45,974 nucleotides of DNA from a virus: positions 1 through 45,974 of the IMG/VR virus record IMGVR_UViG_3300012936_000030, one strand, 5' to 3'. The notes under the pieces were generated by a model. That model was not told where the DNA came from, ran no database searches, and was given only the letters and a program-made list of their open reading frames with translations. The position numbers and the translations under genes are program-made. Shown here piece by piece: positions 9,001 through 45,049 of this stretch. Each line of letters opens with the position of its first letter. The first letter of the stretch is position 1.

Positions 9001-11392
9001 CTTCAGTAAACCAATCTTGAAAGAGATGAAGGTTGATATACGTTATCTCTATGGTAGAGATGTTGGACAAGTTCTAAACATTTTTGATTTTGCACCTGAT
9101 GCATTCTTCTCTACAGGAAGATTTGTAATTGAATCAAATTCATCTTTCTGGGACTCATTTGAGACTTATTCTTGGATGGGAGACAAGATTGGTAGTGGTA
9201 TTCACTGCTGGCAAGTAAAACCTGATGGAACTTATAATGTTATTGGTAAGGTAGCTAACCTACTTCGTACTGCATCAACTGTAGAATTTGATATTGTAAA
9301 AGCACAAAACTCTTTTATCTTAGATAATACAGATATTGTATTTGCTGTAGAGGGATACTATGATAGAAATACTACTCTAGCATCTTCCGAATTTACAGAT
9401 ACTACATTAACTCTTCGTAAAGATGAAACTGGTAGAAAACTTCTAAGAGATGAGAATGGACTGTGGTCTGGAACTATCCTTGGTAAGACATATAAGAGTC
9501 CTTTCTTAAGTCTATCAAATGGAGATCAAATTCGTGTAGAAGGTGAAGATAAATTTAGAAAGATTAAAAAACTTCCTACTGAAACTACCAGTAAGGATAA
9601 TAGAGACGGTCAACAACTATCTGCAGATATTTTTGCTGCTGTTTCTGTAGAACCTTATAATGGTATTACTAGAGGTGAAGGTCTATCCGTTATTGCAACT
9701 GTTGAAGGTGGTTCTGTTACAAAACTAACATGGAATCAGCGTAGCTACGATCCTCTTACACAACCAACTGCATATCAATATTTTACACCACCTATTATTG
9801 AATTCATTCCTGAAGATGGAACTGGTGGTGGTGCTAGAGCACAAGTTATTGTAAGTAAAGGTCAAGTCCTTAGTGTAGATTTGATTGATGGTGGTTCTGG
9901 ATACACCAAGGCACCAAAAGTTATTGTTGCTAGAAGATTTGATATTCTTTCTGAAAGAGAGATTGGTGTTTCTCTGGTTAATTTACAGATTGTCAACCAA
10001 ATCACTGGATTTGGTATGTCAGGAACGACTGTAATTACAGAAATCAGTGATGCTGGAATCAGAGGTATTGGAACTATTGGTACTATCTTACTTGATAGTC
10101 CTGCTGAAACTGAACGTGAAATTGCACAAATTATTACTCCAGAACCAGAACCAGCACAACCTTTAGTTGCTAGACTAGTTGAACTAGAGAAAAAAGCAGA
10201 AACATTAGATGAGGATGTAGAATTTATTGATGTATTCCACAATGCTACTGTTGTATCTGCAGAGATTCAAGACATTGTTACAGTTAATTCAATTTCTACT
10301 GTAAGCAGGGCAATCACCACATCATTTGAGAATCTTATTCCTAATGATGCTCTATCTAATGTCAACTACTTTACTGATGCTGCATACTTAAATCTTGATT
10401 TGGATGTTAACGACAGCATTGCATACATTCCAGATACATCTAAATTTGCTCCTGTCGGACTATTGATGATTGGTGATGAGATTGTCAGTTATGCTAGAAA
10501 AATTTCTGATAGATTCCTCAATCTTACTAGAGGAAGACAAGGAACAACACCTCAGTTCTGGGTTGCTGGAACATATCTAAGACAGATTGAAGAGGTAACT
10601 GTAGTATCCGCTGCTGTTATTTCTATTGAATCTGAAAGCGATGTTACGATGCTCACTGCATCTGTTGCTCCTGGACAAGGACTCGCAAGACAGAGACAAA
10701 TTCAAGTCAAGTCTCCACCTGAGTTCTCTATTACAAGAGAAGCACTTGAGGTAGTAATTACTCCTCCACCTGGTGGTGTGATTGATGGATATGTTGAAAC
10801 AGCATTCTTAGTTGATCCTACTGCAATTAGAGCAGGTAATACTACAGGAGGACATGATGGTGAGGTTGATCTAATTGATGTTTCTGATAGATACTTCGTC
10901 ACTAAACGTGATCTAACAGAGGTTCAAATTACAAACTCTCTATTTGGTGTTTCTGCAGAATATATCGGCAACTATACCACTACAAATGCTGGTCACAGAA
11001 TCAAGCACTTTGATGGTATCTTTGATGATGGTGCAGCAAACGTCTCTGGTATGACAATTCTGGAAATTTCCACATATTATTCCGCGCTTACTATCAAAGA
11101 TTTTAGTGAGAGAGCGGAGTCTAGTTACACTCTAGCTGGTCCTGTTCTCAACCTAGTACCACCATCTATCCAGAATCCTGTAGCTATCAGTTCTTCCTCT
11201 GGAACTATTGGAGGAACCATTGTTGTCCAGGACACTACATTATTCCCAACAACAGGATACCTTTACACCTCTGGTGGCACTGTTATCCAATATACTGGCA
11301 AAACAGCAACTGAATTTACTGGTTGTACTCTAACAAGAGGTCCAAACTCTATATTAAACGGACATGAGTTAGTTCCGTTTGCAATATCCTAA
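71..11392 (+). CDS. Giant virion/baseplate structural protein (3773 aa) at the T4 gp7 position, with YHYH-like domain
   Basis: The gene occupies the T4 gene 7 position, directly before gp8, but I see no gp7 sequence similarity (T4 gp7 is about 1030 residues). Residues 1-215 form an N-terminal domain with an opening (RISTLIETQLPAF) and a later segment (IQKFYKSKGTTSSIKFIF) that I associate with large marine phage structural proteins. Five copies of an 'IGxExIxY...RGxxG' beta module lie near residues 96-150, 332-380, 1280-1325, 3458-3505 and at the extreme C-terminus. GxGY-type beta repeats are scattered through it. A YHYH-like domain spans about residues 757-870. Helical repeats cover about residues 2065-2360 and 2643-2810. 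There is no signal peptide or membrane segment. A baseplate or short-fibre role is inferred from position and composition. The hairpin and late promoters after the stop probably separate it from gp8. Confidence 0.8.
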   Translation: MPAVKTKRISTLIETQLPAFISDEYELFSKFVQKYYEAQEVQGGTLDVINNLQKYADIDYYEKNILKQSDILASSITDSDTTITVSDAQSFPKKNGYIRIDNEIIFYATRTDTEFQECSRGVSGNTSLGDLYEASNFNSTDAAPHNAGQKVLNVSNLFLYAFVKNFENQYLGSFPEKYLKGEVDKRTLIKNIQKFYKSKGTTSSIKFIFNTIVAKDVNNKPEVYKPRDFTYKSSDSDWINVYALKCKVVSGDVKNLIGKKIVQEATTEFGYADAVVDNVYADGTADNEVIYNIVLAPETVNGSFEVSTKTKLVKPVAGTDSTGNRINVSSTIGWGKTGSILLGEETITFEEKTVTQFIIKNRQPSTALGYTADTPVYRPVNISGSGVTLLTFGVIYSLQPDSTQPYASPGDKIQVSNPGFETKDPKIINLATNQVRWVQDTGAAPVIPTLPSIQTSLNELTTDVSSIFADDQYYYITSSSYPSHKILDGSQVNETLLDQRLLRIIRKEATRTTESYPTPRRDVGILLNGVPVYGFKDHDSVRFGKLEEIKVNTQGRGYVTPPFVLVDQVPNKARAVLTGQVVERIEVSTEDIFPRTPDITITSGRNAAVRAVVTGGKVTSLIIDNPGEYYSSPPIVRIRDTAGRGRFAEYTAVVNTDGNIIEFEKNAEGNFYNQNTVVVDIIPVGENATGIPLLKEWNLNRYRKLENNLDTEYGYIFANYNNVLEYGYGYVANPKALRVALNDNINSAGSEPATKTHSPIIGFAYDGNPIYGPFGYSEALNKDSSISRMTSSYSLDGTRSDGPSLTTYPLGTFNNDYTYTHKSGTLDQNNGRFCVTPEFPQGTYAYFITIDSNQVPQYPYVLGENFYSLPVDSNYNSNINQDDIPKNAKKIYSAGMQRNGEGLIANVSEVKSGTVDNVDVIDSSRNFSINSQIYFDNRGTEGSEVESIISSVKGRDVNYIECKEDKVVKLTTIQNAYLFADDTLNQPSSGASGAIVGTVKNDNTIVLRNVIGTFDETGTFSASIKTFNILLDQRSSYTKGAILSLTDGINAPIAKGEVLEGTSSQNVVEIKVTEGTWIINDDYFIQSDDLFNTSGTRLVRLTSLSDGLEPFEVNQSVALVETADGHGLGIGDKVDITINPDDATKTKTYYLRKRLYQEAVLIPPSNTSTIDFTGIGRYEILNGGADYTPGTYTSVAITGGSGSGATATFTVSDAGVVSGIQIQNAGSGYERGDYLGVADEDLVRSGASQSTARFAMYVGHVGVPAGGAKVTVKSGLGFAANDLIQIGKEILQIVGVNGNDLTVTRGKEGTADVDHFDGQEVSLYKPRYNFASNYAIFSTATTGYVQSYDPVTQKVVIVYDYATLNTSADKLVLSSSFFDSSNPQRLVSVKSAGEVGYKFEFSEDNTTFTPNPNINLQEFYKYKFDTSHSSLTGTYFDVSPSNNFNLISVERLATTILPGNPGSFTDLKFGYGTRLPSNTYTDRTGTDFANFFYFDKKNVVSSDNAFFKIVTDPLQGVKNINYVTPNRFVYDIVGEPLWDGSGSISYTTSGQFAVGKINEVNIINLGLNYKKVPTIIGADVSEPFRADATVVFDNVAKVLTGVNIINRGSNYSKPKVVIVDGDGQDATFDIIVRNGEIFSITLDNPGRGYTYTPKIKIIESDVEAYVESDTIGVPQSVKIINNGGAYHLDKTVSSTFTSKYVVSLSSLSTDARYLKGELVTQTVNGVEVFRAKVAEYRLNSNLLKLEDIQGTIREGVAIVGYISNTTAIIKSVFVSTFKEEITSFYDNLGYYKSDKGRLGVSNQKMIDSDFYQDYSYVVKSKTPIDEWRDLIKSTTHPAGFKLFGQVDVEATANTEMPEEMPKASHFSVLQLWDPAKNKITVENTTRVVTQSIQKVENQRIRKAVGSAATSEFLFNEIRSFEVRIYNNTPNYYDDVTNPPNPADAKPWWYKNSFDGVLDEKSKSSGSTTFQLRDENDVAFTPYSAKNLIITLDGVIQEPEVSYTVSGDQIIFATAPLGSSTKQTGEGQTDLTGYSGVKFYAKYIAFKGEGATGYNNRYFKKLRNIYQRGGTWIDAANQIERNIDFIINEAVGYGEATYPTLDWSTKKDDYQQNIREILDAYQHDIRFGGNVKTILYGDTYADQSDYLYIQNNKTQSNAIFAYATRLAKLAVRNWDYSDVNVTYLQGSKTVTVTDTENLAIGMFISSGRSFTTGTKIVSIDSATQITLNNAALANSGTSGGAPVGTTNLSGEATTNTTLPTTTGAVLPGDQYSVADGVTVTAPVSFSGNDQATFSWSGLNNGTFYNAAELIEGNKAYIANESINWAKTTYPALNWEDPLSTRQNAVVNLFTDYSLDIGAVEIKEGDGYVLGYEPTLYCFPAENTVVDPTNQTGFGYEMSATLDRVGYIRQILISPNDGYDAANPPEITFGGDLAGRLRGTPVFLGTQITDIDFWDIENDRPYIPFQRFIEINGIQVEQIQFNDEGDNVITIGPPTLTAPAFQGVQIQATVDITIGRKISNIWITEEGDFDFSVPIAYIRGVNTPGANGFTINPSVELDATCKVKKEIIFNVLNGGYGYDPETVQVNLNWVGGPYQFTPTAEAKLDDEGRVTEIKIVELGDFDLMPNAIATVSGFAPGGTYDVQTKCYRDITLILDSYIYSLKFGGNEKVVTAAQLYYTKNDYPYGESLYHIAGQLTETLATFEYAKDLAVQAMRNELPYTDPSILTDSVTPVCAEVESALNTYHSIVDTILTEGKGLVDKTPQNPNKAGNWTSTVTYSNYNILPDPQIPQQECATVISALDALYDNLEDSIKEESVTKTLPDYVDGETKEFELYWDDNTPVNTEEDEDLFFTLNAVLQRPKYTESYPLEDAYVIDRTVIPNKIKFDVPPIWDQDLGAKTIQEPTAVEKVVGIGVGNYKRLTIDPNLVDNSRTGPFLILDVEDYTVQSIESNSTLYVFIDGILQQEGERKSYTVSGPNIFFSKPILKEMKVDIRYLYGRDVGQVLNIFDFAPDAFFSTGRFVIESNSSFWDSFETYSWMGDKIGSGIHCWQVKPDGTYNVIGKVANLLRTASTVEFDIVKAQNSFILDNTDIVFAVEGYYDRNTTLASSEFTDTTLTLRKDETGRKLLRDENGLWSGTILGKTYKSPFLSLSNGDQIRVEGEDKFRKIKKLPTETTSKDNRDGQQLSADIFAAVSVEPYNGITRGEGLSVIATVEGGSVTKLTWNQRSYDPLTQPTAYQYFTPPIIEFIPEDGTGGGARAQVIVSKGQVLSVDLIDGGSGYTKAPKVIVARRFDILSEREIGVSLVNLQIVNQITGFGMSGTTVITEISDAGIRGIGTIGTILLDSPAETEREIAQIITPEPEPAQPLVARLVELEKKAETLDEDVEFIDVFHNATVVSAEIQDIVTVNSISTVSRAITTSFENLIPNDALSNVNYFTDAAYLNLDLDVNDSIAYIPDTSKFAPVGLLMIGDEIVSYARKISDRFLNLTRGRQGTTPQFWVAGTYLRQIEEVTVVSAAVISIESESDVTMLTASVAPGQGLARQRQIQVKSPPEFSITREALEVVITPPPGGVIDGYVETAFLVDPTAIRAGNTTGGHDGEVDLIDVSDRYFVTKRDLTEVQITNSLFGVSAEYIGNYTTTNAGHRIKHFDGIFDDGAANVSGMTILEISTYYSALTIKDFSERAESSYTLAGPVLNLVPPSIQNPVAISSSSGTIGGTIVVQDTTLFPTTGYLYTSGGTVIQYTGKTATEFTGCTLTRGPNSILNGHELVPFAIS
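2330..2680 (+). other. YHYH-like domain inside the 3773-aa protein
   Basis: The segment contains GFAYDGNPIYGPFGY, then an LDxxNGR stretch, a TPEFPxGTYAYF stretch and a YPYVLG end. The order and spacing match the YHYH family (PF14240), whose usual pattern is GFAxDGxPIYGPxG, LDxxNG, TPE(Y/F)PxGTYHYH, YPYxxG. The eponymous Y-H-Y-H is Y844-A-Y-F847 here, so both histidines are lost. The match is by eye but spans four ordered motifs. Confidence 0.75.
6268..8500 (+). repeat. Helical repeat modules in the 3773-aa protein
   Basis: Three related segments lie at about 6268-6608, 6973-7138 and 8000-8500. The shared pattern is a helix with an 'xxIxxNxxxIxxEA' flavour, then 'YPxLxW', then a stretch ending in 'DIRFGGN' or 'SLKFGGN', then a helix ending in 'AYATRLAKLAVRNW' or 'EYAKDLAVQAMRN'. 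In the last segment two 'CAxVxSALxxxxxxxxxIL'-type helices follow. The same order recurs in the 3025-residue protein. The function is unknown. Confidence 0.65.
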
Positions 11393-11450: not shown

Positions 11451-13265
11451 ATGGCTGCTATTATCTCTGATAAGTTTCGCATCTTTAACGCGAAACAATT
11501 TCTAGAATCTCTTACTGAAGGTCCAAACGATACGAGTGCGGAACGCTCTAGAATGTACTTCTTTGTGGGTCGTCCACAACCTTGGAAAGCGTACTTAGAA
11601 ATTCACTCTAAGAACGGAACGGCGTTTGCTGTAGGCAACGAAGTCTATGTTGGAACATATGGTTCCACCACTTTCCGTGCTACAGTTGCTGCCGTTTATG
11701 ATAGTGCCCTTCTTCTGACCGACGTTTTTGGCAGCGCAGGAATTAATTCCGCACCAACTCTTGGTACTGCTCTTAAAGGCAGAACTGGTGGTGCAGGCGG
11801 ATCCGACACTGGTGCCGAAGCAGTCTCTGGCGTATATCGTTACGCTACTGAGGATGTTCCACCTCTTCCTCTTGATAACCAGAGAGAAAAAAGAAATCTT
11901 TACGACGAACTAATTGCTGCCAAGCGTATTACTGATGCTTTTGCAAGAACAGTTATTCGTCGTTATAACTGGGACACTGTTACCAATCCTAAGTTTGACA
12001 TGTGGAAACCTGACTACTCTGCTACACCTGGTGGCGGTGGTCAAATTGGTAAAACCACTGCAACAGGTCAAACCAGTATTGCTGACGCTAAGTTCTATGT
12101 AATGAACTCTCAGTATGAAGTATTCAAGTGTCTTTACAATGGTGAAGATCCTTCTAACACAACTGGTCAGAACGCAACTGAAGAACCATCTACAGCAGGT
12201 GGTAACTATGCTTCTGCCACTGGTCTCTATACCGAGACAACTGGTGCTGGTTACATCTGGAAGTATATGTACACCATCCCAACCGATGATGTTCTGAAGT
12301 TCCTCTCTTCTGACTTTATGCCAATCGTTCTACCAGCTAACGCTTCTAGAACTGGTGTTGTTGGACAAGCAGTTGATGGCGCAGCAGACGTTGTAGTTAT
12401 TGAGAACGCTGGAAGTGGTCTTCCTGCTTCTCAGACTCTTTACACTAGCGTCAAAGGTGACGGCACAGGCGGTGTTGTACAATTTGTTACAAACGGTGCT
12501 GGTACAATCACATCTGCTGAGATGCAATCTCGTGGATCAGGTTACACCTATGCTAATGTTCTTCTAACTAACGGCAACCTCTTCTCTGATGCTGGTCTAT
12601 CCAGTGCAGTTGCAACTGGTGGTTCTGCTGTTGGTGCTCTTGAAGTTATCCTTCCTCCTGAAGGTGGACATGGTTCTGATCACGAAACAGAATTGAATGG
12701 TAAGCGTGTGATGACAAACATTCGCCTAACCTATTCTGAAGGTGGTGGTGATTTCCCTGTTGATAACGACTTCCGTCGTATTGGTATCATTGCTGATCCA
12801 TATGCTTGGGGAACCACAACATTTGAAACTAGAGACACTGTTTCTGGTCTAAAAGCTATTAAGATCACTGGTGCTAGTGCTGATTACTCTGTTGATGAGA
12901 AGATCACACAGACAGTTGCTGGTGGTACTGCATACGGTACAGTTGTTTCTTGGACACTTGACAGTGGTTCTACTACCGCTGGTGTTCTTAAGTACATCCA
13001 AACTACAGATGCACACACAGACAGTGGTGTTGTAAGAGCATTTGAGTCTAATGGTTCTAATGCAATCACTGGTGAGACATCAACTGCTTCTGGTAACGTA
13101 GACACTGGATATGGTTCTGCACTACTAGGTGTCACTTTTGCAAGTGGTCTAGCAGCACCTGAAATTGAAAATAATTCTGGTGATGTTATCTACGTTGAGA
13201 ACCGTCGTCTCATCACTCGTGCTCCTGACCAGATTGAAGACATCAAACTTGTAATTGAATTCTGA
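11451..13265 (+). CDS. 8: Baseplate wedge protein gp8 (enlarged)
   Basis: This is a homologue of T4 gp8, a component of the baseplate wedge. Three stretches match T4 gp8 in order: the N-terminal DKFRIFNAKQFLESL followed by a YFFVGRPQPW segment (T4 has FITFGRSEPW); the AGYIWKYMYTIP core around residues 266-278 (T4: DGYVWEYLFEIP); and the C-terminal GDVIYVENRRLITRAPDQIE segment before residue 604 (T4: GEMIYMENRPPIIMAMDQTE). T4 gp8 is about 334 residues, so this one is nearly twice as long. The extra length includes a glycine-rich linker near residues 195-205 and GxGY-type beta repeats around residues 315-385. The start follows tandem late promoters; no strong Shine-Dalgarno is evident. Confidence 0.9.
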   Translation: MAAIISDKFRIFNAKQFLESLTEGPNDTSAERSRMYFFVGRPQPWKAYLEIHSKNGTAFAVGNEVYVGTYGSTTFRATVAAVYDSALLLTDVFGSAGINSAPTLGTALKGRTGGAGGSDTGAEAVSGVYRYATEDVPPLPLDNQREKRNLYDELIAAKRITDAFARTVIRRYNWDTVTNPKFDMWKPDYSATPGGGGQIGKTTATGQTSIADAKFYVMNSQYEVFKCLYNGEDPSNTTGQNATEEPSTAGGNYASATGLYTETTGAGYIWKYMYTIPTDDVLKFLSSDFMPIVLPANASRTGVVGQAVDGAADVVVIENAGSGLPASQTLYTSVKGDGTGGVVQFVTNGAGTITSAEMQSRGSGYTYANVLLTNGNLFSDAGLSSAVATGGSAVGALEVILPPEGGHGSDHETELNGKRVMTNIRLTYSEGGGDFPVDNDFRRIGIIADPYAWGTTTFETRDTVSGLKAIKITGASADYSVDEKITQTVAGGTAYGTVVSWTLDSGSTTAGVLKYIQTTDAHTDSGVVRAFESNGSNAITGETSTASGNVDTGYGSALLGVTFASGLAAPEIENNSGDVIYVENRRLITRAPDQIEDIKLVIEF

Positions 13266-21420: not shown

Positions 21421-21627
21421 ATGGACTACATCAAAGTAAGTGGGCATGATGGTCTCGTAAGAGACCAAAAGACTGGTGCCATCATCAATTTGGACGATTC
21501 TGCGATTGAAGCAAGACGTAAAGCGAAACACCTAGGTTCCGCGTTAGAAGACATAAATATGTTGAAGAATGAAATCTCTGAAATCAAATCACTACTTAGA
21601 GAGTTAGTCAAAAATGCCAGCAATTAA
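21421..21627 (+). CDS. Small predicted coiled-coil protein (68 aa)
   Basis: This is a short acidic/basic protein. The first part (YIKVSGHDGLVRDQKTGAII, residues 3-22) resembles a small conserved protein seen beside structural genes in T4-like marine phages. Residues 30-66 form a probable helix with leucine/isoleucine heptad spacing (ALEDINMLKNEISEIKSLL), consistent with a coiled coil. It lies nine bases after the DUF4815-type gene, and its last 14 bases overlap the start of the 1414-residue gene, which suggests translational coupling. It may be an assembly factor or small virion component. The function is unknown. Confidence 0.7.
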   Translation: MDYIKVSGHDGLVRDQKTGAIINLDDSAIEARRKAKHLGSALEDINMLKNEISEIKSLLRELVKNASN

Positions 21628-24600
21628 CGTCGCAAAAACAGATACCTTTGAGACTCAAAGGGTAAAAATTAATGATATTGCACAAGCAATTTTTAATGTT
21701 ACAGCAGGTGGTAGTGATCTATCTACTGGTATTTTAAAACTAGGTGATGGTACAAAACCATTACCAGCATTGGCATTTAACAATGAACCTTCTCTAGGTT
21801 TATACAGACCAGCTTCAAAGACTATCGGATTTGTTTCAGGTAGCAAAAATATTTTAGACATTGAGGAAACTCAACTTCTCTTATACAAAGATCAAACTAT
21901 TAGAAAAAGATCTATTCCAACTGGTGGTGGAATTGATCTTACCCGTGGTTCTGGATATGAGTTTGGAACATATATTAATATCCCTCTACTAGGTGGTTCT
22001 GGTTCTAATGGAGAAGCAACATTCTTCGTAGACTATTTTAGAGGAACTCCAGGAACTGGTGCTGGTTACAATGCAGGAACATATACAGGTGTCCCTTTAG
22101 TTGGTGGTAGTGGAACAGATGCAGCGGTAGATTTTACTGTTTCTGGATTAGAAGTTCTTGTCAGTGATGGTGGTACTGGATATGCAGATGGATTCTATTC
22201 TGGTGTTGCACTATCAAATGTAAGTGGATCTGGTAATGGTTCTGGTGCTACTGCAATTGTTGAAGTTGTAGGAACAATTATTACTAACGTTGCAATCGCA
22301 ACTAATGGTAATAATCAATATGAGCAAGGAGATATCTTAACTGTAACAGATAATCTACTTGGTTCTGGTGGTGGTAGTGGACTTGAAATTGAAGTTACTT
22401 CTGATGCTGGTGTATTTACATTTGATGATATTACAAAGGGTCCAGGATATACCGCAGGTAATGTTTTAACACTACCAGTAACACAGACTGCTAATAATGT
22501 CAATATTCCAGGTGTACATATTACAACTGGTTCTACTCTAACTGCTGGAAGTACAACAGTAACATTACCAGCAACAACTAATGAAGTCATTCCTGGAATG
22601 ATTCTTGCTGTTGATCAAGGTGGATCTGTAGGAGAATTTCCAGGTGGATCAACTGTCACTGTCGTTAGCATTACAAATGGCACTACAGTAGAAGTAGACA
22701 CAGCAGCTTCTGTATCTGGTGCTGCAGATATTACATTTTCTAGTGCTGAAAATACTGTTATTACTGTTCCTGGTGGAACGGCAAACTTAGTTGGTGGAAT
22801 GGTTCTTTCAGGATCAAATACTACCGCAGTTGATGGACTTACAATTGTCAATGTTAGAAATGCTAACGAAATTGAAATTAGTGCTCCACCAACAAATGCT
22901 TTCTACCAAGCAAACTTAACATTCACTCCTGGTTGGGGTGTTGGATCAAGTGCATTTAGTTACACCGTTGATGTTGTTGGAGCAGTAGAAACCTTAACAA
23001 TTACGGATGGTGGTACTGGTTATGTAATTGGTGATGTACTTACAGTAAGTCCATCAGATCTAGTTAATCCAATTGAGTATTCAATTAAATCCGAGGGTCT
23101 TCAAAAATTAACATTTACAGGAACTGTTGCTTCTTCTGTGTTTGTTGTTGGTGATGAATGGGAGATTGATGGTGGTGGAGAAGGTGGTGCATCTTTTGAG
23201 GTAGCATTTGTTAAATCTACTGGTGGTAACGTTGATTATGTTTTACTGAAAGATGCATCTTTTGCTGATGCAGATGATATTAGAAAAGTCGGAACTACTA
23301 CAACTTATACTATTGCAGTAGCTAGACCACCTGGTGGAAAGTATTACATAGAAAACGTCTCTGGTACTTTTAACTTACATCCAGATTTTACTTTCTACGC
23401 TGGAGAAAGATATAGATTTAATCTTGACGCTTCAATGACCAGTCACTCATTGAAGTTTAGTGCATTCCCTGATGGTATTCATAATACTATTGGACCTATT
23501 GTAACAACAGTTACTGCTGCAACTGATACTATTAATGTAACTAGCACTGCCAGCATTCAAGTTGGAATGAAGGTAGAGGAAACAGGAAATGATCCTGGTC
23601 AATTAGCAGAAGATACTCTAGTAACAGAAATTGTTGATGCTACTACGATTCGTGTATCACCTGCTCCAACTTCAACTGGACAAATTAGTATTTCTTTTGC
23701 TGGAGTAGAATATACTGATGGTGTTACAGTTACACCAGCATATATTGAAATTAAAATTACAGAAACTACGCCATCTACATTATACTATTATTGTGCTAAC
23801 CATCCTGATATGGCTGGTGAAGATGGTGATGAAGCAGTTCTTACAATTGATACAAATAACCCACGAGTATTTGGTAGTGGATTCCAAGGAGAACTCACAG
23901 ATGTTACAGTTTCGGATGTAGTCAAATTTGATGTTGAAACTGGAAAAATTGATTGTAATGATATCGTATCGCCAGCAGCAAGATTTACCAATGCTACAAT
24001 AACAACTCTCTTAAGTGCTTCAAATATTTCTGGCGACACTATTTCGCTATCAACTATCAATGCTGCTTCTTCTTTAGATGTTACAGCTGGAACCAATATT
24101 AATTTAACTGGTGATGTAACACTTGGCACAGTAGCTACTGTTGCCAGAACTAGTGGTGATTTTGCGACTCCTGGTGAAATCAAAACAACTACTCTCTTCA
24201 ATTCAAATGATGCCTTGAAGATTGAGGATGCTGTTATTGAATCTATCAATAACTACGATCTGGAAATGACACCTTTTGCAGGAAGACTTGCAAAGGTAAA
24301 TACAAATACTGCATTTGTACTTCCAGTTGGTACTTCTGCTGAGAGACCTACTGGTTTAGCAACAGACGGATCTATTAGATTTAACAGCGAGACAAATCAA
24401 TATGAAGGTTATAGTGGTAATTCTTCTTCTTGGTCTTCTCTTGGTGGTGTTCGTGACCTAGATGGTAACACATATATTCTAGCAGAACTAACTGTAGGTG
24501 CTAATGATAATACACTACATTTTGTAAATGATAATGTTGTTACACAAAGATTCACTCCTGCTTGGCACGAGTATGTAAATGTCAAACAAGTTAGATCTGT

Positions 24601-25858
24601 AAACGTAACTGCTCCAGCATATACAGAATTTATTGCTAATGCACCTGTTGCTGAGGGAGATTATGTTAAGTGGAGAAACAATATTTACGTTGTTCCTAAC
24701 GGAGGACAAGGAACTACTGCAACTAGTGGTAGTGAACCAACACATACAACAGGAACCCAACCAAACGGAACAGCACAGTTAGAGTGGTTTGCATCTGCAG
24801 TTGCTCCACTTACATTTGAAGAAATTGAAGAAGTTAGGATTTCTCCTCTAGGATTTACACCTCTCGTTATTAATGGTGATTTAAGATTAACTGGCAATAA
24901 AATTACTACAGATGTCAGTGATCTTGTTTTACAACCTAATGCTGGTAAGAGAGTAGATGTTAACAGCAACACTACACTAACAGTTCCAGTTGGATCTGAT
25001 GCAGACAGAGGATCTGCAATCCAAGGTGGTATTAGATTCAGTACAACTGCTGGACAGTTTGAAGGATATGATGGAGCTAACTGGGGTTCTCTTGGTGGTG
25101 TCAAGGACGTTGACCAGAACACCTATATTATTCCTGAGACTTCTCCTGGTGCAAACGAAAACGTTTTGTACTTCTACAATGATGGAAACAATAGTCTTCA
25201 GTTAACTACACTTGCATTAGATTTCTATTCTGTAGATACTATCAGATCAATGACATCTGATGAATTAGAGGTAACAGCATCTCTAATTACATTTGATACA
25301 GCAGCTACTACTTTAGATAATACTTCTGCTACAACTACATTCTTACATTCTGCAAAACAATACTTTGATCTAGGTCTTTCTTCTGGTCTTTATGTTGAAC
25401 CAGTATTAAGACTTGATAATCAAGGTGATGTGTATTTCAACACTACATTTGGAACTGGAACATTTACTGGTGTTAAAGTTTTTGATGGAAATCTTACAGA
25501 GTTTGAACTTCAAGATACTACAATCAGAACAGAAGATGTGACTTTATTAAAAGGAACAACTAATACTGGTGGTGTTATTATCTACGATCCAGCAGTTGAA
25601 GTTGGAGCAAAAACAGTAGTTACTGCACACAATCCAACAACAGGTGAAAAAGAATTTATTGAATTTGGTATTATAGATAATGGAACAGACGTTTTCCACA
25701 CAGAGTATGGCAACTCTAGAACTGGTCAACAACTTATCATTCCAACTTTTGAAGTGACTGGTGATAATAAAGTCCGCATCAACCTTGAACTTGGTGCTGG
25801 AATTGGAGTTACACAATCTGTCAACATTACCCTAACCTCTCAAATCACTAAGAAGTAA
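21614..25858 (+). CDS. Virion structural protein with cupredoxin-like segment (1414 aa)
   Basis: The N-terminus (residues 1-100) contains a SLGLYRPASKTIGF motif typical of phage fibre-like proteins. Residues 105-300 are GxGY-type beta repeats. Residues 295-435 hold two 'GMxLxxxx..VxxI..xTxVEV' beta modules. Residues 574-745 form a cupredoxin-like segment with candidate copper ligands H611, C727, H730 and M733. A further beta module interrupts it between the first His and the Cys. Residues 895-1200 hold two copies of an 'RxxGxIRFNxExxxxEGYxGxxW' fibre module followed by 'SLGGVxDxDxNTYI'. Between them is a 'GDYVKWRNNIYVVP' stretch like small carbohydrate-binding modules, which is a weak resemblance. 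The gene overlaps its upstream neighbour by 14 bases. A role as a baseplate-attached fibre or decoration is inferred. Confidence 0.75.
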   Translation: MPAINVAKTDTFETQRVKINDIAQAIFNVTAGGSDLSTGILKLGDGTKPLPALAFNNEPSLGLYRPASKTIGFVSGSKNILDIEETQLLLYKDQTIRKRSIPTGGGIDLTRGSGYEFGTYINIPLLGGSGSNGEATFFVDYFRGTPGTGAGYNAGTYTGVPLVGGSGTDAAVDFTVSGLEVLVSDGGTGYADGFYSGVALSNVSGSGNGSGATAIVEVVGTIITNVAIATNGNNQYEQGDILTVTDNLLGSGGGSGLEIEVTSDAGVFTFDDITKGPGYTAGNVLTLPVTQTANNVNIPGVHITTGSTLTAGSTTVTLPATTNEVIPGMILAVDQGGSVGEFPGGSTVTVVSITNGTTVEVDTAASVSGAADITFSSAENTVITVPGGTANLVGGMVLSGSNTTAVDGLTIVNVRNANEIEISAPPTNAFYQANLTFTPGWGVGSSAFSYTVDVVGAVETLTITDGGTGYVIGDVLTVSPSDLVNPIEYSIKSEGLQKLTFTGTVASSVFVVGDEWEIDGGGEGGASFEVAFVKSTGGNVDYVLLKDASFADADDIRKVGTTTTYTIAVARPPGGKYYIENVSGTFNLHPDFTFYAGERYRFNLDASMTSHSLKFSAFPDGIHNTIGPIVTTVTAATDTINVTSTASIQVGMKVEETGNDPGQLAEDTLVTEIVDATTIRVSPAPTSTGQISISFAGVEYTDGVTVTPAYIEIKITETTPSTLYYYCANHPDMAGEDGDEAVLTIDTNNPRVFGSGFQGELTDVTVSDVVKFDVETGKIDCNDIVSPAARFTNATITTLLSASNISGDTISLSTINAASSLDVTAGTNINLTGDVTLGTVATVARTSGDFATPGEIKTTTLFNSNDALKIEDAVIESINNYDLEMTPFAGRLAKVNTNTAFVLPVGTSAERPTGLATDGSIRFNSETNQYEGYSGNSSSWSSLGGVRDLDGNTYILAELTVGANDNTLHFVNDNVVTQRFTPAWHEYVNVKQVRSVNVTAPAYTEFIANAPVAEGDYVKWRNNIYVVPNGGQGTTATSGSEPTHTTGTQPNGTAQLEWFASAVAPLTFEEIEEVRISPLGFTPLVINGDLRLTGNKITTDVSDLVLQPNAGKRVDVNSNTTLTVPVGSDADRGSAIQGGIRFSTTAGQFEGYDGANWGSLGGVKDVDQNTYIIPETSPGANENVLYFYNDGNNSLQLTTLALDFYSVDTIRSMTSDELEVTASLITFDTAATTLDNTSATTTFLHSAKQYFDLGLSSGLYVEPVLRLDNQGDVYFNTTFGTGTFTGVKVFDGNLTEFELQDTTIRTEDVTLLKGTTNTGGVIIYDPAVEVGAKTVVTAHNPTTGEKEFIEFGIIDNGTDVFHTEYGNSRTGQQLIIPTFEVTGDNKVRINLELGAGIGVTQSVNITLTSQITKK
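23332..23845 (+). other. Interrupted cupredoxin-like domain (candidate type 1 copper site)
   Basis: GKYYIENVSG at the start, then TFYAGERYRFNLD and SHSLKFSAF with H611, then YYYCANHPDM with C727, H730 and M733. The spacing C-x2-H-x2-M is that of amicyanin-type blue copper proteins, and the upstream His in a beta strand fits the fourth ligand. About 69 residues (bases about 23492-23698) between them belong to another beta module. Without that insert, the His-to-Cys distance is about 47 residues, as in plastocyanin. Confidence 0.65.
24295..25210 (+). repeat. Two copies of a fibre module in the 1414-aa protein
   Basis: Copy 1 (about 24295-24560) and copy 2 (about 24957-25210) share, in order: VNxNTxxxxPVG, then xxxGxIRFxxxxxQxEGY, then a Trp, SLGGV, DxDxNTYI, GANxNxLxF. 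Between them lie about 400 bases encoding the 'GDYVKWRNNIYVV' stretch and a short linker. The 'G.IRFN....YEGY' part also occurs near the start of both glycine-rich proteins in this window. Confidence 0.7.
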
Positions 25859-26407: not shown

Positions 26408-29400
26408 ATGAGTTTTAATATCAATTCTGACAAGGAATTTGTAAGAGGTTCTAAACCACGCCTTATTGGCGACAATGAACTTACTATCCGATCTGGCACT
26501 GGTTCTGCCGAGAAGGAAATTATCAGAGCACAGTTAGATGCTAACACTGCTCTACCTCGTGTTGGTATTAATAGAACGGGTGAAAGGGTAAACGAGATTA
26601 CAATCACATCAGGTGGTTCTGGATACACCACAGAACCTTCTGTAGCAATTGATCCACCTGGAACTCCTGGTGGTGTCCAAGCTCTAGCATCTGCATTTAT
26701 TTTTAACGGTCAAGTTATTAATATTGCAATTAACAACCCTGGTTCTGGTTATACGACAGCGCCTGGTGTAACCATCACTGGTGGTAATGGTGGTGGTGCA
26801 TCCGCTACATCTGTTCTTGATACTGTTGATTTTGAACTTGACATCAACGGTGCTATTAGAACCTCTACGTCCATCATTTCTGACACGGCGAGAATTCTAA
26901 ACCTTGATATTCAAAACTTTATTACTCCTGACACAAACTTCAGAGCTCCTAACCTGAAGACATTTATGAATAATACAGGCACAGAATGGGGTGCTAATGT
27001 TATTGTTCAAAAGGATTCTTATAGATATTTTGGTGCTAATGTTTACCAGGCAATTAATGCTGGGCAAACAGGTCCAGATGCACCTACACATACTGATGGT
27101 ATTGTACTAAACAACGAAGTACAATTTAAACACATCGGTTTCCGTGCTAATGATTCAAATTCATTTGCATATAATCAAACTGGTGACGCTGGAGTATTCC
27201 CAAGATCAATCACACCTCTACTAGGTGATAGATCTGACAAGATTGCAACTACAGAATACGTTCTCAACCTAGCAACGAATGACGTTGGTGGTCGTATTTA
27301 CGTTTCAGCACAGATTGGTTCTGACTTGAACGATGGTCGTTCTGCAGTTAACCCAGTTAGAACAATTAAGAAAGCAGCGCAACTAGCGTGGGCAACTCCT
27401 GGTGTAAAAGAAACACTGATCGTTTCTGGTGGTGATTATGTAGAAGATAACCCAATCTCTCTACCACCTGATGCATCTGTTGTTGGTGATAACCTTCGTT
27501 TGGTAATCATCAGACCTGCCAACCCTGGTAAGCACATCTTTAAGTTTGGTGATAAAAACTACGTTATTGGTGTTACTTATAGAGACCAAATTGACTCTGT
27601 TGGTGATGCAGTCGCCACTTGGGACTTTGCTATGGTCTTTGACGATAAGCAAAGAATCGTCATTGACAATGAAGTCAACGGAGACTTTGGAGTCAACTTC
27701 CCAATTGGTCACCAAATCTTTGGACCTGACCAGTTCCGTGTAAATTTCCAAGAAAACACTGGTTTATCAGCACTAACCGCTGGATTGGAAGTGGTTGGTG
27801 TCAACACTGGTGCTAGAGCAAAACTAATTGATGTTAGTTTCAATCAAACTACGGGTGTTGATGCATTCCTGACTGGTAGTGTTGATGTACAACTAACAAG
27901 TGGTTCCTTCCTAGAGGGTGAGAGATTTAATTATCTGGTTACTGGTACACAAGGAGCAGCTCTAGCAATAACGATTACTGGTACAGCTGGTGCTAATATC
28001 TTTAGAACTACTACAGATCCTGATACACTAATTCCTCCTGGCACATATATCTACCTTGATGATACTGATGACAGTAGTTTTACACAAGGTTTCTATGAAG
28101 TAAAAGCAGTTAATGATGACAACTCACCAACATATTGGGATGTAGAAGTTGTACCAATTCTAAACTCACCTGGTTGGGATACAACTGCAGCAGAAACCAT
28201 TGATATTAATGCTGCAAATGTTACTGTCAATAGTTTTGATACAACGACTCTAAAATCAATTAGAGCTGAAGGTGAGGTTGTATCCTTTGATGATGACATC
28301 ACAACTTCGGTTCCTATTCAAAGACTTGACTTCTCTTTACAGGGAGATCCAAGTATTGCAACTGGTGGTTTCCAAAATGCACAGTTTGGTAATGCAGAAG
28401 ATCTTGGTGGTATTGTATTCTACACCAATGAACTAGTTGGTAGAAGTAATATTCATGATTTTAAAGAAGGACAAGAAATTTTAATTGAAGGTCTACCTAC
28501 TTCATCTCCAGACTTATCCGTTCTTATGGGTAAGCAAAGAATTTACAAAGTTCTAGAAGATGCTGATGGACGTTCCAGAAGATTTGTTATTCCTAAGAAG
28601 TTTCCATCAATCACAACTGCTAACTTTGATCCTGGCACAGTAGCTACTGCAAAGTCTTTCTCCAAATCTGTTACAGTTTCACTTCTAAACTCACCAAACT
28701 CTTTCCCTCTATCTACTCCTGTAGAAAGAAGATTCCAAGATGCATGTGTGTTCCTACGCAATAATAGAGAGTTTATTGCAGATGAAGTTGTAGGACAAAT
28801 TAACGAAGAGTTTAAGACAGATCATTATCGTGTATATGATGTTAGTGGAAATGATTTCAAGATTTATCTTGGAGCTACAGACCATGTGAACACTTATGTA
28901 AGTGGTGGTACAGTAACATTTGGCGGTACTTCATATAATATTACTGGATTTGTTTACGACAATGCTGTAACTGGAGAGGCAACTGTAACTACTGGTACAG
29001 TCATTCCTTCTCTTGCTGAAGATGATGTTGTTAGATTAGCAGATATTCTTATCTCATGTGAATCTGGTAATAAAATTTATCCATCATATAGTTCTCCAAC
29101 ATCAGGTTCTAATACAGGAACTGATGGTGACAATCAATGTCGTCAAGACGTTATTCACTTTGTCAATGCATTGATAAGAGACCTTGAATTTGGTTCTAAC
29201 CATAACATTATTGATGCAGCGAAAAAATATATCGTCAATGATAAAATTGCATTTATTGAGGATGAAATTGTACAGAACGTTCGTGCAGTAGAATATGCAC
29301 GTAGATTATGTGTTCTTGCAATGAGGAATTGGAGAACAGATGACGGAACTACAAATGATCCTATCTACACTCCAAAGTATTCTAGTTTACCAAGATATTT

Positions 29401-32400
29401 TGATGACACTGTAATTACAGCAACTGCTGGAACTCCTGCTTGTGCTGATGTAAAATCTGCTATTGACACTCTAGCATTCCTTTGGGGAGATGTAATTACA
29501 AATAATCAGAATGGCACATACTTAGATGGTGCATATCTGATTGCTAGAAACGCAGACTTGATTGCTGATCAGGCATACGAAGATACTGAAGTTGCTTATC
29601 CTGAGATCAATAACACGAATATAAATGAAAGGAAGTGTACTAGAGATACTAAACTGGTACTAAAAGGTCTTGTAAAAGACTTAGTTCTTGGTGGTAACAA
29701 TGGTATTGTTGATGCTGCTGAGTCTTACTTTAGTGGTGGCACTCTTACTGGTGTTCCAGTATCTGAAATTCCATATGTTCGCTATGCTTATGAGAGAGCA
29801 AAAATCTATTGTAAGAGTGCAGCTAAGAACTGGTCTGCTGCTGGATCGCAAGGTGGTGGTGTTGTAAGTCGTGTAGTTAGTAACGCAAATTACAGTCCTA
29901 CAAGTGGACAACTGACTATTCAGATGCCAGATGCTAGCGTTCCTGTAGGATTTGGAGCAAATTCTACATCTAGAGTCGCTTTCCAACTAGGTGGATTGAC
30001 CTTCAACTGTGCTCACAATGGTGGCGGAGATGATGCTGTTCCTAAGATTTTTGATTCTAATGTAGGTAAGTCATACGAAGTTCTTTCTTTTAGTAGTTCT
30101 GCTGGTATAACCACCATTGAAATGAATGTGGGTACTGCTGGAAGTAACACGGATACACATACGTTTGTAAGTGGTAGTGCTCTACTGATTAATGATTATG
30201 TTGCAATGTCTTCTCCAATTCCTAAATTTGAGGACTGGAGTATTCTAGTAGATGATGGTACAGGAGCTACATGTGCAAACGTAGATGCATCTATTGATAC
30301 ATCATTTGCTTTACTTGATAGTATCCTTGAGTATTCTGTTGACGTTGTTAACGGTACAGAACCTGGATCTACTACTAAGACATTTGGAGTTCTGTATGAT
30401 ACAAATGATGTTATCACATATCCAGATAACTTTATCTTTGACCAGAACAATACACGAATGGCAATTCGTGCTGATTATGATGACTTCCCAATCATTGAAG
30501 CATCTCCATACACCCAGAACGCATCTGTTATCTCCTTCCTAGGTGGTGGCGGTGCTCTAGTTGATGGTTCTAAAGTTAAGCAACCTAACTGTCCTTTCCC
30601 TGGTCTAGAACTAGATGGAACTGCATCCTTCCCTAATCAGGGTAAATCAATGGTTGCATCGGCATTCACGATTGTCTCCTTTGGTGGTACAGGTTATAAG
30701 ATTATCAATGATGGTTACACCCAGTTGGTTTCTGTCTTCGTTATCTTCTGTGCTGACGGTGTTCTTGCTGAGTCTGGTGGTTATGCATCTATTACAAACT
30801 CTGCTACAAACTTTGGTATCTATGCTCTTCGTGGTATTGGATACAGAGAAGAATGCTATAGCTTTGACGTTGGTACAATTAGTAATGTTTCCTCTACACC
30901 AACTGGTAGAACTATCTTAACTGTTACTGGATTAGGTAGAGAACCACTTGAGCATTATGTTGTTAAAGTTGACGGATTTAGAAACACAAATACTGATATT
31001 GAATTCTTCGTTGATGCTGTAAATGGAGTTACAGTTGGTCCTCCTTTCTCTGCACAACTTACTCTTGATAACGGAACTGGAGATTCTCTAGATCTAACAA
31101 ATATTACCACTGGTAATGTTGTTTCACCTGGTAGTCTCCAGGGAGAAACAATTAAGTTACATAGACCATCTATTGTTAACTCCTCCTCACACACTTGGGA
31201 ATTTGCTGGATCAGGTACAAACTATCTTGCACTACCTGAAAACGGTGGTACTAAGACAGAAGCATTTGAACAGGTATCTGAACAGTATGGACGTGTATAC
31301 GTTTCTGGTACTGACGAACTTGGTGACTTTAAAGTTGGTACATTCGCGAGAATTGAAAACAGAACTGGTGCTATTACCTTTACGGGTACTGTTACCATCT
31401 CTGAAGTTGAATTCTTGAAACTAAAAGGTGGCGACGTTGTTGTTACTGGATTTGACGCTTCCAATACACTTGGTGGTGCTAACTCTAGTGACTCTAAACT
31501 ACCAACTCAAAAGGCAGTTAAAGATTATATTACTAACAACCTTGGACCATACATCAACAAACCATTCTCTACGAATGCTATTCCAAGAAACCTTGTAGAA
31601 CTAACTGACTCTGGTAAGATTTCTGTTGATCAGATTCCTGCACTAAGACCATTTGAAGTCTTTACAGTTGCTAACCAAGCAGAAAGACTAGCACTAGAAG
31701 GAGCACTTGCTGGTGATATTGCAATTGAACAAGATACGTCTACATCATTCATTCTAAACAATGATTTAGATAGTCAGTTCTTAGCATTTGGTATTGATAC
31801 AACAATTCAATTTACTATTGGTGATATCTTCACTGGTAGCATTACTGGTGGTCGTCTACAAGCAACTGAATACAGACAGGGTGTTGTATTCCAGATTAAC
31901 ATCACACAAGGTGGATCTGGATATGCATCTCCACCAACTGTAACCCTAACTGGTGGTACTCCTCAATCTGGATCTGTTGAAGCAAAAGCAGAAGCTATTA
32001 TTGCTAACGGTGAAGTAGTTGCAATTGATCTTATCGTATTCAATGGATTTAAAGGTGGTAAAGGATATACTGTTCCACCAAATGTACAAATTGCTGCTCC
32101 TGCAGGATCTGGTGTTGCTGCTACAGCAAATGCACTAATTGAAAGTAGACTCTATGGAGACATTGTTAATAGAATCAAACTAGAAGACAATGACTTCATT
32201 GAAAGTAGTGATATTCCTGCAGTTGATATTAACATCACTAGAGTTGTTAATACATCATCTTCTAACTCTCTCAACTGGGTATCTCTATCTTCTAATCAAA
32301 TTGCTGCAAACCAGATTGTATCTGGTACTATTGAAACTGATAGATTAGCATCTGGTGGTGCTGCAAACTCCTTTACCTTCCTAAGAGGTGACCAGAACTT

Positions 32401-35400
32401 TGCACTAGCAGTTCAGTCTGTTAAAGGTTCTGAGAAGAGATACTTTGCTAAGTTAACTTCTACATGTAATAGCGGTTCCAGTGAAATGGTATTCGCTACG
32501 CTAGCGGATGCTCTTGTAGGACATGAGGTTAAGAATAACGTATCTGGTGTACAACCAAATACAAACATTACTGGTGTTCTAACTTCTGGTGGTTCAACCA
32601 CAATCGGATTAAACAACCCAGTTGTTGCAACGATTGCTGCTGGTACTGTTATTGAATTTGAACGTGGCGATTCGCCAATGATCTTTGAGTCTACCTTTAC
32701 TAGAGGTAACTTTGTTGATGATGTCATCATCTCTAACGGTGGTACTGGATTTACAAACGGACAATACTTTGACCTGGATGTAATTGGTGGTACTGGAGCA
32801 GAAGCTAAGATGAACATCATCGTTTCTGGAGGTACTATCACAGAGATTACTGTCACTGATGGTGGTTCTGGTTATGATGCAGACTTCACAATGACAGTTC
32901 CACCTACAGCAATTGGTGGAGGATCTGGTCTTGTATTACTTGTCAAGATTAGCACTGTCAACAAACAGTTTGCAAACGTCTCTATGGACGTTCAGAGAGT
33001 ATCTGATCTTACAATTTCTTCTGACCTATTCGGAACAATTGGTGTTGCAAGATTTAAGAAGTCTCAATTTATTGTTGGACAATCTGGAAATGGTTCTGTT
33101 GAACTAGACGTTGGTGCAGACTCTGGTCTTGATGCTGACTTACTAGATGGACAGCAAGGTGAATACTACACTAATGCTACTAACCTGTTTACTGGAACAG
33201 TTCCTACAGATAGACTTTCTGGAACATATAACATTAGTGTTTCTGGTTCTTCTGGTAATACGTTAAGACTAACAACTGGTATTAACAACCCAACTTCTAA
33301 CCCATCCCCTGATAACTTTGCTGGAGGTGTTGTTTCTAACACTATCAACAATACCGCAAATGGTTTGGTTGATGGTGGAACCAAGAACATGGTTCTGACA
33401 TTAAGAGCTGGTGGATCTAGTTTTGATGCATCATTTGGTGGTGTAAGACAACTTGCATTCACAGATAATGATAACATGTATCTCCGTGGATCTGGAACTG
33501 GTGTTACAACCTTTGGATCTTGGGCAAAGATTTGGCATTCTCTAAATGATGGTATTGGATCTGAGTTAGATGCTGACAGACTTGATAACAAGCAAGGTAT
33601 CTGGTATCAGAATGCTTTGAACATGAACTATGGAACTCTATCTGATAATAGATTACCTAATTTCATGTCATCTAAGGTAGTCCAAGATGACTTGACAATC
33701 AAATCATTTAATGGAGATCCTAAGTTTAGAATTTATGTTTCTGGTTTAATCCTAAACACAACACCATTTACTCCTGGATCTAACGTCAACTTGTATGATG
33801 CTAACGGTCAGGGCACTGGTACTATTGCTATTGACAACTTTGTTATCAATAATGATCCTGATAATTCAAATGATTTTACAATCATTATTGGTAGACTAGT
33901 TACTGGTAACTTCATTGGTGCAAAAACAATTGGTGATGCTGGAAACAGAAAAGAATTCCAAGACTTCACAATTGAAGATGGTAATACTGTTGAAGTTGCA
34001 AAACTAGAAAGTGATGGTGGTACTGCAAACCTAAGACTAGGTAGAAAGGATAGCATTGCATCCTCACCTGGCGTTTACTTTAACTCTTCTGTATCTGCAG
34101 CTAACTATAACGTAGGTTTAGTTGCAACAGGTGGTAACGCGACTGATGGTTCTGGTACTCTTAACTGTCTAGTTGCAAATGCTGATGGTTTCAATGTTAA
34201 CGGTAACGTTGTTTGGAACGCAGGTAATATTGATTTCCAATCTGCAAACATTGCAAGCACTGCTGTTAAGAGAGATGCTAATGGTGACTTCTCTGCTGGT
34301 ACAATCAGTGCAAACTTAACTGGTTCTGCTTCTCTGAACGTTCTTAAGGCAGGCGATAGCATGTCTGGATCGTTGAACATTACTGGTGCTGGATCTACTC
34401 TAACAGTTTCTGGTAACGCTACATTCTCAAGTAACGCGACTGTTATTGGAGACCTTGCAGTTGATACAGACACGCTATTCGTTGATGTGTCTGCAGACAG
34501 AGTTGGTGTTAATGCTGGAGTATCTCCTGCATACAACTTAGATGTTCGTGGTGATCTTGGTCTTGGCATCTATGCAGCAACAAATGCTAGTGGAAATTCT
34601 AAGATCACTTTCAGTGATCATTCTGCTGGTTCATTTGCACAGAAAGGTATCTTCCAATACTTACACAGTGATGGAGCTATTTCAGGCACCAGCTATTCCA
34701 ACTACTTCATCATGGATAGCACAGAAGCTAACTTGCTATTCAAGGTTGGTTCTGCTTCTAGTCCTGGTACTCTATCTGTTACCAACAGAATTGGTGTTCA
34801 GACAGATACTCCTGCATATCCTCTAGATGTTGCAGGTTCTGGTCGTGTTCGTGGCACATTCTATGTTGATAGTGGTAATGATAACTCTGGTGCTCCAATT
34901 GAATTCTTTGGTGCTGCAAACTACAGAAACTTCAGAATTGGTAACCAGTTAATTGCTAATCACATCTTCTCCTTCCAAGCTTCTAATAGCAATGGTAACA
35001 ATGATTGGAATGCAACTCCTGCATTGCAGATGGATGGTAGCACTAACGCAGTTTCCATCAACACAACTGCAACTTCAGGAACTGATCCTTCAAACAACAC
35101 TGTTAGAGCTTACAAACTTAATGTTCAGGGTGACGTTAACTTCAACGGTCAACTCTTCCAAGACAATCAAGAGTTTGTTACTTCCAGATGGACAGAAGCT
35201 TCTAACACAACTGATATCTACAGACTGTCTAAAGTTGGTATCAACAGAGCAGATCCTGATTATACATTAGACGTTGGTGGTGAAGCAAACATCAGAGGCA
35301 TTACTCGCGTTAATGCAGATGCACAATACTTAGACACTTATGGTGTTGTTAAGAGAAACAGAAATAGCATTTCTGAGAATCTTACAATTGGTGGTGCTGA

Positions 35401-35713: not shown

Positions 35714-36766
35714 ATGTCTACATTAAATGCTGGAACCCTCAATATTACAGGGACACTAAATTTACCATCATATACTACCTCTCAGAGAAACGCATTATCT
35801 GCCTCGGTTGGCATGATGATTTACAACTCTGAAGAGGGTGGTGTTGAAGTGTATGATGGTACAGAATGGAAAGCTGCTATCGGTGCAGGTGGTGGATTTA
35901 TTACAGCATCTGGAGGAGCAATCCAAAATGATGGTGATTTCCGTGTACACACTTTCAATAGTGCATCTGCTTTTGTTGTAACTGAAGTTGGAGATTCTAC
36001 ACAACCATTTGGTAACACTGTTGACTATCTCATTGTTGCAGGTGGCGGTGGTGGAGGAGGATTTGGTTCTGGTGACTTCAACAACTTCGGTTCTGGAGGA
36101 GGCGGAGGCGCTGGTGGTGTCTTAAGAACTGATGGTTATAACTACGCTGTATCAGCTGGTTCATATTCTATCGCTGTTGGTGGCGGAGGAACTGGAGGAA
36201 CTGGTAACTCTGCTGGATCACCTGGTGGAAATAGTTCACTAGGAACACAAACTGCTATTGGAGGCGGTGGAGGAGGTCAACAGGACAAACCTGGACAATC
36301 AGGTGGTTCTGGTGGCGGAAACGGTACTGACGGTGATGGAGAGGGTCCTGGCGGGTCTGGCACAGCAGGTCAAGGTTTCCCTGGTGGAACTGGCGCTACA
36401 TCTCAGAATGGTACTTCTGGTGGCGGTGGCGGTGCTGGTGAAGCAGGTCAAGGTGGATACAACAGACCAAACTCTGGTCCTGCAAGAGGTGGTAACGGAT
36501 ACACATCTGCTATCTCTGGTTCTCCACAAACTTATGGTGGTGGTGGCGGTGGTGCTAACTACCCTGGTGGTCCTCATAACCCTAATGGTGGATCTGGTGG
36601 TGGAGGAGTAGGTGCTCTATCTCCTACTGCTAACGGAAACCCAGGAACAGGTGGTCTTGGTGGAGGTGGCGGCGGCGCTGCTGACCAAGATCCTCGCAAC
36701 TATCCAGAGCCTAAAGGTGGCAATGGTGGCGGCGGTATCGTAATTGTCAAGTATAAATTCCAGTAA
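35714..36766 (+). CDS. Glycine-rich tail-fibre adhesin-like protein (350 aa)
   Basis: Residues 1-60 form a fibre entry domain (LNLPSYTTSQRNAL, then GMMIYNSEEGGVEVYDGTEW). Residues 75-105 are beta-rich. Residues 108-335 are very glycine-rich, with several G5-G8 runs separated by short polar or proline-containing loops. The end (GGNGGGGIVIVKYKF) is typical of glycine-rich marine phage proteins. This composition resembles the polyglycine-II sandwich adhesins at phage fibre tips (Salmonella phage S16 gp38 type), where loops between glycine helices bind the receptor. There is no regular G-x-y collagen pattern. A second protein of the same build lies at 43697, after the oxygenase cassette. Receptor binding is inferred. 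Confidence 0.75.
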   Translation: MSTLNAGTLNITGTLNLPSYTTSQRNALSASVGMMIYNSEEGGVEVYDGTEWKAAIGAGGGFITASGGAIQNDGDFRVHTFNSASAFVVTEVGDSTQPFGNTVDYLIVAGGGGGGGFGSGDFNNFGSGGGGGAGGVLRTDGYNYAVSAGSYSIAVGGGGTGGTGNSAGSPGGNSSLGTQTAIGGGGGGQQDKPGQSGGSGGGNGTDGDGEGPGGSGTAGQGFPGGTGATSQNGTSGGGGGAGEAGQGGYNRPNSGPARGGNGYTSAISGSPQTYGGGGGGANYPGGPHNPNGGSGGGGVGALSPTANGNPGTGGLGGGGGGAADQDPRNYPEPKGGNGGGGIVIVKYKFQ

Positions 36767-36770
36767 AATC

Positions 36771-37361: not shown

Positions 37362-37370
37362 ATAAACAAA

Positions 37371-39683: not shown

Positions 39684-39684
39684 G

Positions 39685-41109: not shown

Positions 41110-41111
41110 TC

Positions 41112-43663: not shown

Positions 43664-43666
43664 ATA
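43659..43666 (+). promoter_or_regulatory. Late promoter TATAAATA upstream of the second adhesin gene
   Basis: This is an exact TATAAATA that contains the stop codon TAA (43661-43663) of the last oxygenase gene and ends 30 bases before the ATG at 43697. The use of a stop codon as part of the promoter repeats the design at 35481. Confidence 0.7.
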
Positions 43667-43696
43667 CATTGGAAGCACTAGAAGTTTTTTGATAAA

Positions 43697-44776: not shown

Positions 44777-44784
44777 TATAAATA
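44777..44784 (+). promoter_or_regulatory. Late promoter TATAAATA upstream of the 62-aa gene
   Basis: This is an exact TATAAATA directly after the stop of the second glycine-rich gene (stop 44774-44776), ending 27 bases before the ATG at 44812. The transcript would end at the terminator at 45008-45042. Confidence 0.75.
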
Positions 44785-44811
44785 CTGATACATCATTCTT
44801 ATTTGATTACT

Positions 44812-45000: not shown

Positions 45001-45007
45001 ATACCAG

Positions 45008-45042: not shown

Positions 45043-45049
45043 GTGTGTA

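Follow-up and report, generated by a model that had tools for sequence, protein, structure and literature searches.

A 1414-residue virion structural protein of a T4-like cyanophage carries, split by an inserted beta module, a domain whose cupredoxin fold and type 1 copper ligand set are well supported. Our preferred reading, to which we assign a probability of roughly 0.6, is that this domain is a true cupredoxin module of the virion, likely to bind copper or another soft metal and to act as a metal-stabilised domain on the receptor side of the particle; the metal occupancy and function in this reading are what we infer from conservation, homology and location.

The sequence analysed, hereafter the window, comprises the 45,974 bases of an IMG/VR virus record and most resembles Synechococcus phage S-RSM4, with a coverage of 76% and an identity of 78% across a 24.9-kb stretch. 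The ORF is intact, runs from 21614 to 25858 on the plus strand, and is assigned to PHROG_6005 "virion structural protein" with a score of 1649 bits; its family is one of T4-like cyanophages, and its domain is matched by 80 cyanophage records. The "virion structural" label is that of the PHROG and GenBank annotation of homologues, and detection of this gene by virion proteomics was sought and not found. Upstream lie a baseplate wedge/structural giant (71-11392; phrog_4406, phrog_2885), a homologue of the baseplate wedge protein gp8 (11451-13265, plus strand; PF09215, 2.8e-11; phrog_438, 2e-177) and a gene for a 2698-residue protein, while a 3025-residue tail fibre protein (26408-35485, plus strand; phrog_5342) is encoded downstream. 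These neighbours place the ORF in a T4-like cyanophage baseplate/tail-fibre block, and its product is probably a component of the corresponding complex. A run of ORFs of about 200 residues lies beside the tail genes at 35714-45850; the matching stretch of S-RSM4 bears several 2OG-Fe(II) oxygenase and hypothetical protein annotations.

The putative ligands lie exactly where the initial annotation had put them, namely His611 (23444-23446, plus strand) and, within the loop C727-A-N-H730-P-D-M733 (23792-23812, plus strand), Cys727, His730 and Met733 (codons starting at 23792, 23801 and 23810), and all four align with the ligand His and the Cys, His and Met of plastocyanin. By chance, C-x2-H-x2-M arises in 4 of 20,000 shuffles of the window protein. 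Residues 565-747 form a cupredoxin domain homologous to the plastocyanin-type blue copper proteins, with a complete type 1 ligand set and a loop of the amicyanin type.

The first half of this domain, about residues 565-627, contains the first-His strand (23306-23494, plus strand; family HMM match to 565-651, and alignment), and the second half spans about residues 697-747 (23702-23854, plus strand; family HMM match to 696-741, domain E=1.6e-13). The beta module "GMKVEETG" separates them at about residues 628-696 (23495-23701, plus strand); it is missing from compact relatives, forms self-contained strands in the predicted model, and recurs as a free-standing second copy at residues 307-379 (22532-22750, plus strand; HMM E=7e-7). 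The interrupting module of some 69 residues that had been proposed is thus real when measured against insert-free relatives, and its removal does restore a normal spacing, the first His and the Cys then lying roughly 50 residues apart, as is typical of such relatives. In the alignment with compact relatives, the insertion falls after the first-His strand and before the YTxGV strand. A phage beta module has here been copied into the loop that leads from the His strand to the Cys-His-Met loop, which is where cupredoxins are variable. Both this variability and the alignment, in which relatives bearing such an insert retain all four ligands, make it probable that the insert leaves the site unbroken. 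Relatives carry the "GMxV" beta module several times over, and the window protein has it twice, as just located; it behaves like a mobile unit that can enter a different domain.

Three independent routes all support the cupredoxin assignment made initially: Foldseek on a high-confidence model, a profile search of the PDB, and weak direct matches to Pfam and NCBIfam. In the AlphaFold modelling that had been suggested, AF2 gives the window domain, insert included, a pLDDT of 91.4 (from residue 578 onwards, at least about 90), and the insert-free compact relative L106 a mean pLDDT of 96.3. Against the PDB, the L106 model returns cupredoxins almost exclusively (probability 0.99-1.0), with moderate TM-scores of 0.5-0.6; the best match is Hyphomicrobium nitrite reductase 2dv6 (E=1e-4), and rusticyanin, small laccases and pseudoazurin are also found. 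The top matches of the window domain are rusticyanin and AcoP, with low TM-scores that are probably due to the insert. The Greek-key beta-sandwich of the cupredoxins is therefore seen in the compact relative and, owing to the insert, more weakly in the window domain; the superfamily order of His...Cys-x(2-4)-His with an axial Met or Gln is present, and profile alignments bring these residues into register with the ligands of solved cupredoxins.

When the profile is built from the compact family only, plastocyanins in the PDB are found at E=0.07. With the broader profile A4, to which cellular relatives and more divergent phage copies also contribute, plastocyanins take the first nine places (E=1e-4), with H/C/H/M aligned on H/C/H/M. 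Comparison by hhalign with 23 PF00127-type proteins gives the same register at E=0.0011, with a probability of only 20%; reversed, column-shuffled and unrelated controls do no better than 0.1. Direct matches of family members, to Copper-bind, plastocyanin and amicyanin, are weak: in NCBIfam the best A4 members reach E=3.5e-5 for amicyanin and 1.3e-4 for plastocyanin, one plastocyanin score being 16.7 bits, far short of the equivalog cut-off of 87.85, so that no equivalog membership is claimed, and in PF00127 Copper-bind the window domain has no match and one phage member scores 18.6 against a curated cut-off of 21.2 bits. The Flavobacteriaceae relative L392 lies above that cut-off (27.5 bits) and is matched by the phage profile as well.

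Direct Pfam and single-sequence PDB searches with the window domain yielded nothing useful, and the PDB gave only antibody chains. Such matches, seen for antibody V domains at weaker E-values, could be taken to mean that the C..H..M pattern is a chance resemblance in a beta-rich, Ig-like domain unrelated to cupredoxins; they are explained by the shared YYC strand. Since plastocyanins stand orders of magnitude above antibodies once the profile is enriched, Foldseek returns cupredoxins and not antibodies, and shuffled and reversed profile controls fail, we consider chance resemblance extremely improbable.

Among known systems, plastocyanin (PF00127 Copper-bind; TIGR02656) shares with the phage domain the profile fold, the register of the four ligands and the aromatic strand before the Cys. 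Unlike plastocyanin, in which the loop is C-x2-H-x4-M, the phage domain has C-x2-H-x2-M, lies inside a giant virion protein and carries a 69-residue insert, and its phage members fall below the Pfam cut-off. The loop of amicyanin is itself C-x2-H-x2-M, and two A4 members, including the best one cited above, match its model (TIGR02657); the partner of amicyanin, however, is methylamine dehydrogenase, whereas the phage domain is without that partner and resides in a virion. Rusticyanin and the N-terminal cupredoxin of nitrite reductase give the best Foldseek matches of the phage domains, but they differ in loop lengths and are cellular respiratory electron carriers. Seven of 38 phage domains also match PF25489, At5g54830-like (plant DOMON/cyt b561), just under the cut-off (best E=1.5e-5, positions 28-124 of 126), although the context there is a eukaryotic membrane protein.

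The compact form of the domain, 'GNKYYIDG...LxLxxGxTYxFDQSDSSNxxHPLRFSTTxDGTHxGG...LYYYCxNHSGMGG', is found in 135 isolate phage records, from phages of Synechococcus, Prochlorococcus, Pelagibacter and Methylophilales, where the annotation of the proteins is tail fibre, baseplate wedge, virion structural or hypothetical; PHROG matches of 38 representatives include baseplate wedge subunit (33/38) and tail fibre protein (31/38). A degenerate DNA pattern for YYYCxNHxxM is met in at least 120 IMG/VR contigs. As the initial annotation stated, such stretches are common in the tail proteins of marine phages. No PHROG or GenBank name seen calls the domain a cupredoxin, and the open-access literature, outside which most subscription journals lie, yielded no description of this motif as a copper site, nor of any phage structural protein with a cupredoxin or blue copper domain. 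The cupredoxin superfamily itself is known; the open-access papers covered gave no account of it as a common tail module of virions with its type 1 ligands intact. The family HMM finds no extra copy in the other large proteins of the window (best E=0.06), and six-frame ORFs of the window and 80 sampled contigs contain no additional copy outside PHROG_6005 proteins. Cellular relatives include a 183-residue, lipoprotein-like single domain from SAR86, a lipoprotein-like protein of Marine Group II archaea and surface-type proteins of Photobacterium; in the cultured marine bacteria Photobacterium phosphoreum and P. malacitanum (L188, L189) these are giant proteins with the same cupredoxin-like domain and all ligands present.

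To avoid circularity, phage domains were sampled on the first-His stretch alone (HPLRFS..GTH), and C-x2-H-x2-M is present in all 120 of those with enough sequence. In A4 the two His and the Cys never vary and the Met is conserved in 90% or more, at a mean column identity of about 32%. In upstream copies that are otherwise intact, the axial Met changes to Gln only, as in L387 and L388, and Sf-CH1b has a C-x2-H-x4-M loop. An axial Gln is a feature of the type 1 site of stellacyanin, and the longer loop is that of plastocyanin; the axial and loop variation in the phage copies follows natural type 1 sites.

These observations bear on the idea that the domain is a cupredoxin by descent which now serves as an Ig-like building block, its ligands recently inherited and holding no metal in the virion. 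Such a history would fit the ligand-less orthologues that keep the domain (Syn1, S-H9-2 and the L331 clade) and the tolerance of a ligand-less copy in two-copy proteins. It is hard to reconcile with the 120/120 retention in the compact family, the near-invariance of the A4 ligand columns, the restriction of axial change to Gln and the presence of a single intact site in a protein, whichever copy holds it, and we judge it unlikely. One of the refuting outcomes named at the start, loss of the residues in homologues, is seen in part, in that several orthologues have lost them.

These losses are found in PHROG_6005 proteins, which can hold two cupredoxin copies, a compact one upstream and an insert-bearing one downstream. 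Among isolates, the insert-bearing copy has lost all four ligands in S-H9-2 and Syn1 and Cys, His and Met in Sf-CH1b, S-MbCM7 and S-H9-1, and it has a C-x5/6-H variant in S-B43, S-CAM4 and S-PM2; six of these eight proteins have an extra upstream compact copy with an intact set. The loss of residues is therefore patterned, in that proteins losing the insert-bearing site mostly keep the upstream one. Sampling by the C-terminus alone, at 80 IMG/VR loci to which the 11 isolates and the window were added, gave 70 distinct proteins, in which the intact set is in the upstream copy only in 43, in the insert-bearing copy only in 19, in both in none and in neither in eight, one of the last lacking its start. 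Exactly one intact copy is thus present in 62 of the 70, and the site switches between copies; the reverse loss, with a ligand-less upstream and an intact insert-bearing copy, is seen in L355, L368 and L369. Each site trait changes at least six times on a tree of the C-terminal region, and with only three supported independent pairs, all opposite or neutral in direction, the reciprocal-loss association is not statistically established. The pattern suggests that one site per PHROG_6005 protein is under selection, with independent contrasts too few for significance. It holds per protein and not per genome: "one site per genome" was rejected because S-CAM4, S-H9-1 and others have further intact copies elsewhere. 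In five nonredundant PHROG_6005 proteins neither copy has a site, and those of S-PM2 and S-B43 have the C-x5/6-H-E variant only, so the metal would be dispensable for the protein.

The insert-bearing copy often has a conserved alternative motif, His...C-x5/6-H-x2-E ('YYYCASGAGHEDEGG'), as in S-PM2, S-B43 and, among proteins with an intact upstream copy, L326, L337 and L366; it could be a different metal site. Degenerate copies in L447 (S-B43) and L438 (S-CAM22 gp7) have lost the first His and Cys/His together.

Metal binding at the site of the putative virion cupredoxin is suggested by the four ligands, which across most of the family behave as if selected together; loop type and homology point to copper, and the tail location and the precedent of T4 to a stabilising role in a receptor-side domain. 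The tip of the T4 long tail fibre (gp37) has HxH iron sites, through which a host-recognition structure is metal-stabilised, as the phage cupredoxin would be; there the metal is iron in a fibre, and fold and ligands are unrelated. By analogy, metal would rigidify the receptor-side virion domain. Free copper is probably almost absent from the cytoplasm, where virions are assembled, so metallation must be late or with another metal; most likely the site would hold copper, or else another soft metal at cell release that is later swapped for seawater copper.

On another reading the site serves mainly for zinc or a different soft metal, taken up at assembly for a purely structural purpose and with no copper chemistry. 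Structural metals have the precedent in phage fibres just described, and the many copies with the C-x5/6-H-E variant resemble a non-copper site; the canonical C-x2-H-x2-M, the aromatic YYY-C context and the Met/Gln axial position are nonetheless features of type 1 copper, and some cellular relatives resemble secreted lipoproteins, which makes this reading rather improbable. Type 1 sites are normally redox centres and the domain is located in host-facing tail proteins, so one may also envisage a tail Cu(I)/Cu(II) couple that transfers electrons, deals with superoxide or attracts a host receptor for copper uptake; with no partner protein or pathway seen, we hold such redox work to be very unlikely.

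Since the domain recurs in the tails of many marine phages, their particles may carry copper. The fuller proposal that the virions of marine T4-like phages and pelagiphages are copper proteins, with type 1 copper in tail-fibre and baseplate cupredoxins, selection for one functional site per PHROG_6005 protein, and copper-dependent stability, redox chemistry or receptor luring, is tentative and somewhat doubtful; it would be for copper what the "Ferrojan horse" idea is for iron. The phages with this domain, whose hosts are listed above, include some of the most abundant viruses of the sea. Were their sites filled, marine virions in large numbers would contain copper, and phage stability or adsorption would be linked to a trace metal that is both scarce and toxic.

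In the S-H9-1, S-CAM4 and ACG-2014i genomes (L441, L442, L446), a second cupredoxin-like domain type, HPFYxKT...YYYICQFHxGMxGQIIIS, ends another ORF with its ligands intact and a C-terminus nearer to plastocyanin. Pithovirus- and marseillevirus-like beta-sandwich proteins in BFVD (A0A481Z6J5, A0A481Z7Q7, A0A481YVH3) are structural matches to the phage cupredoxin model.
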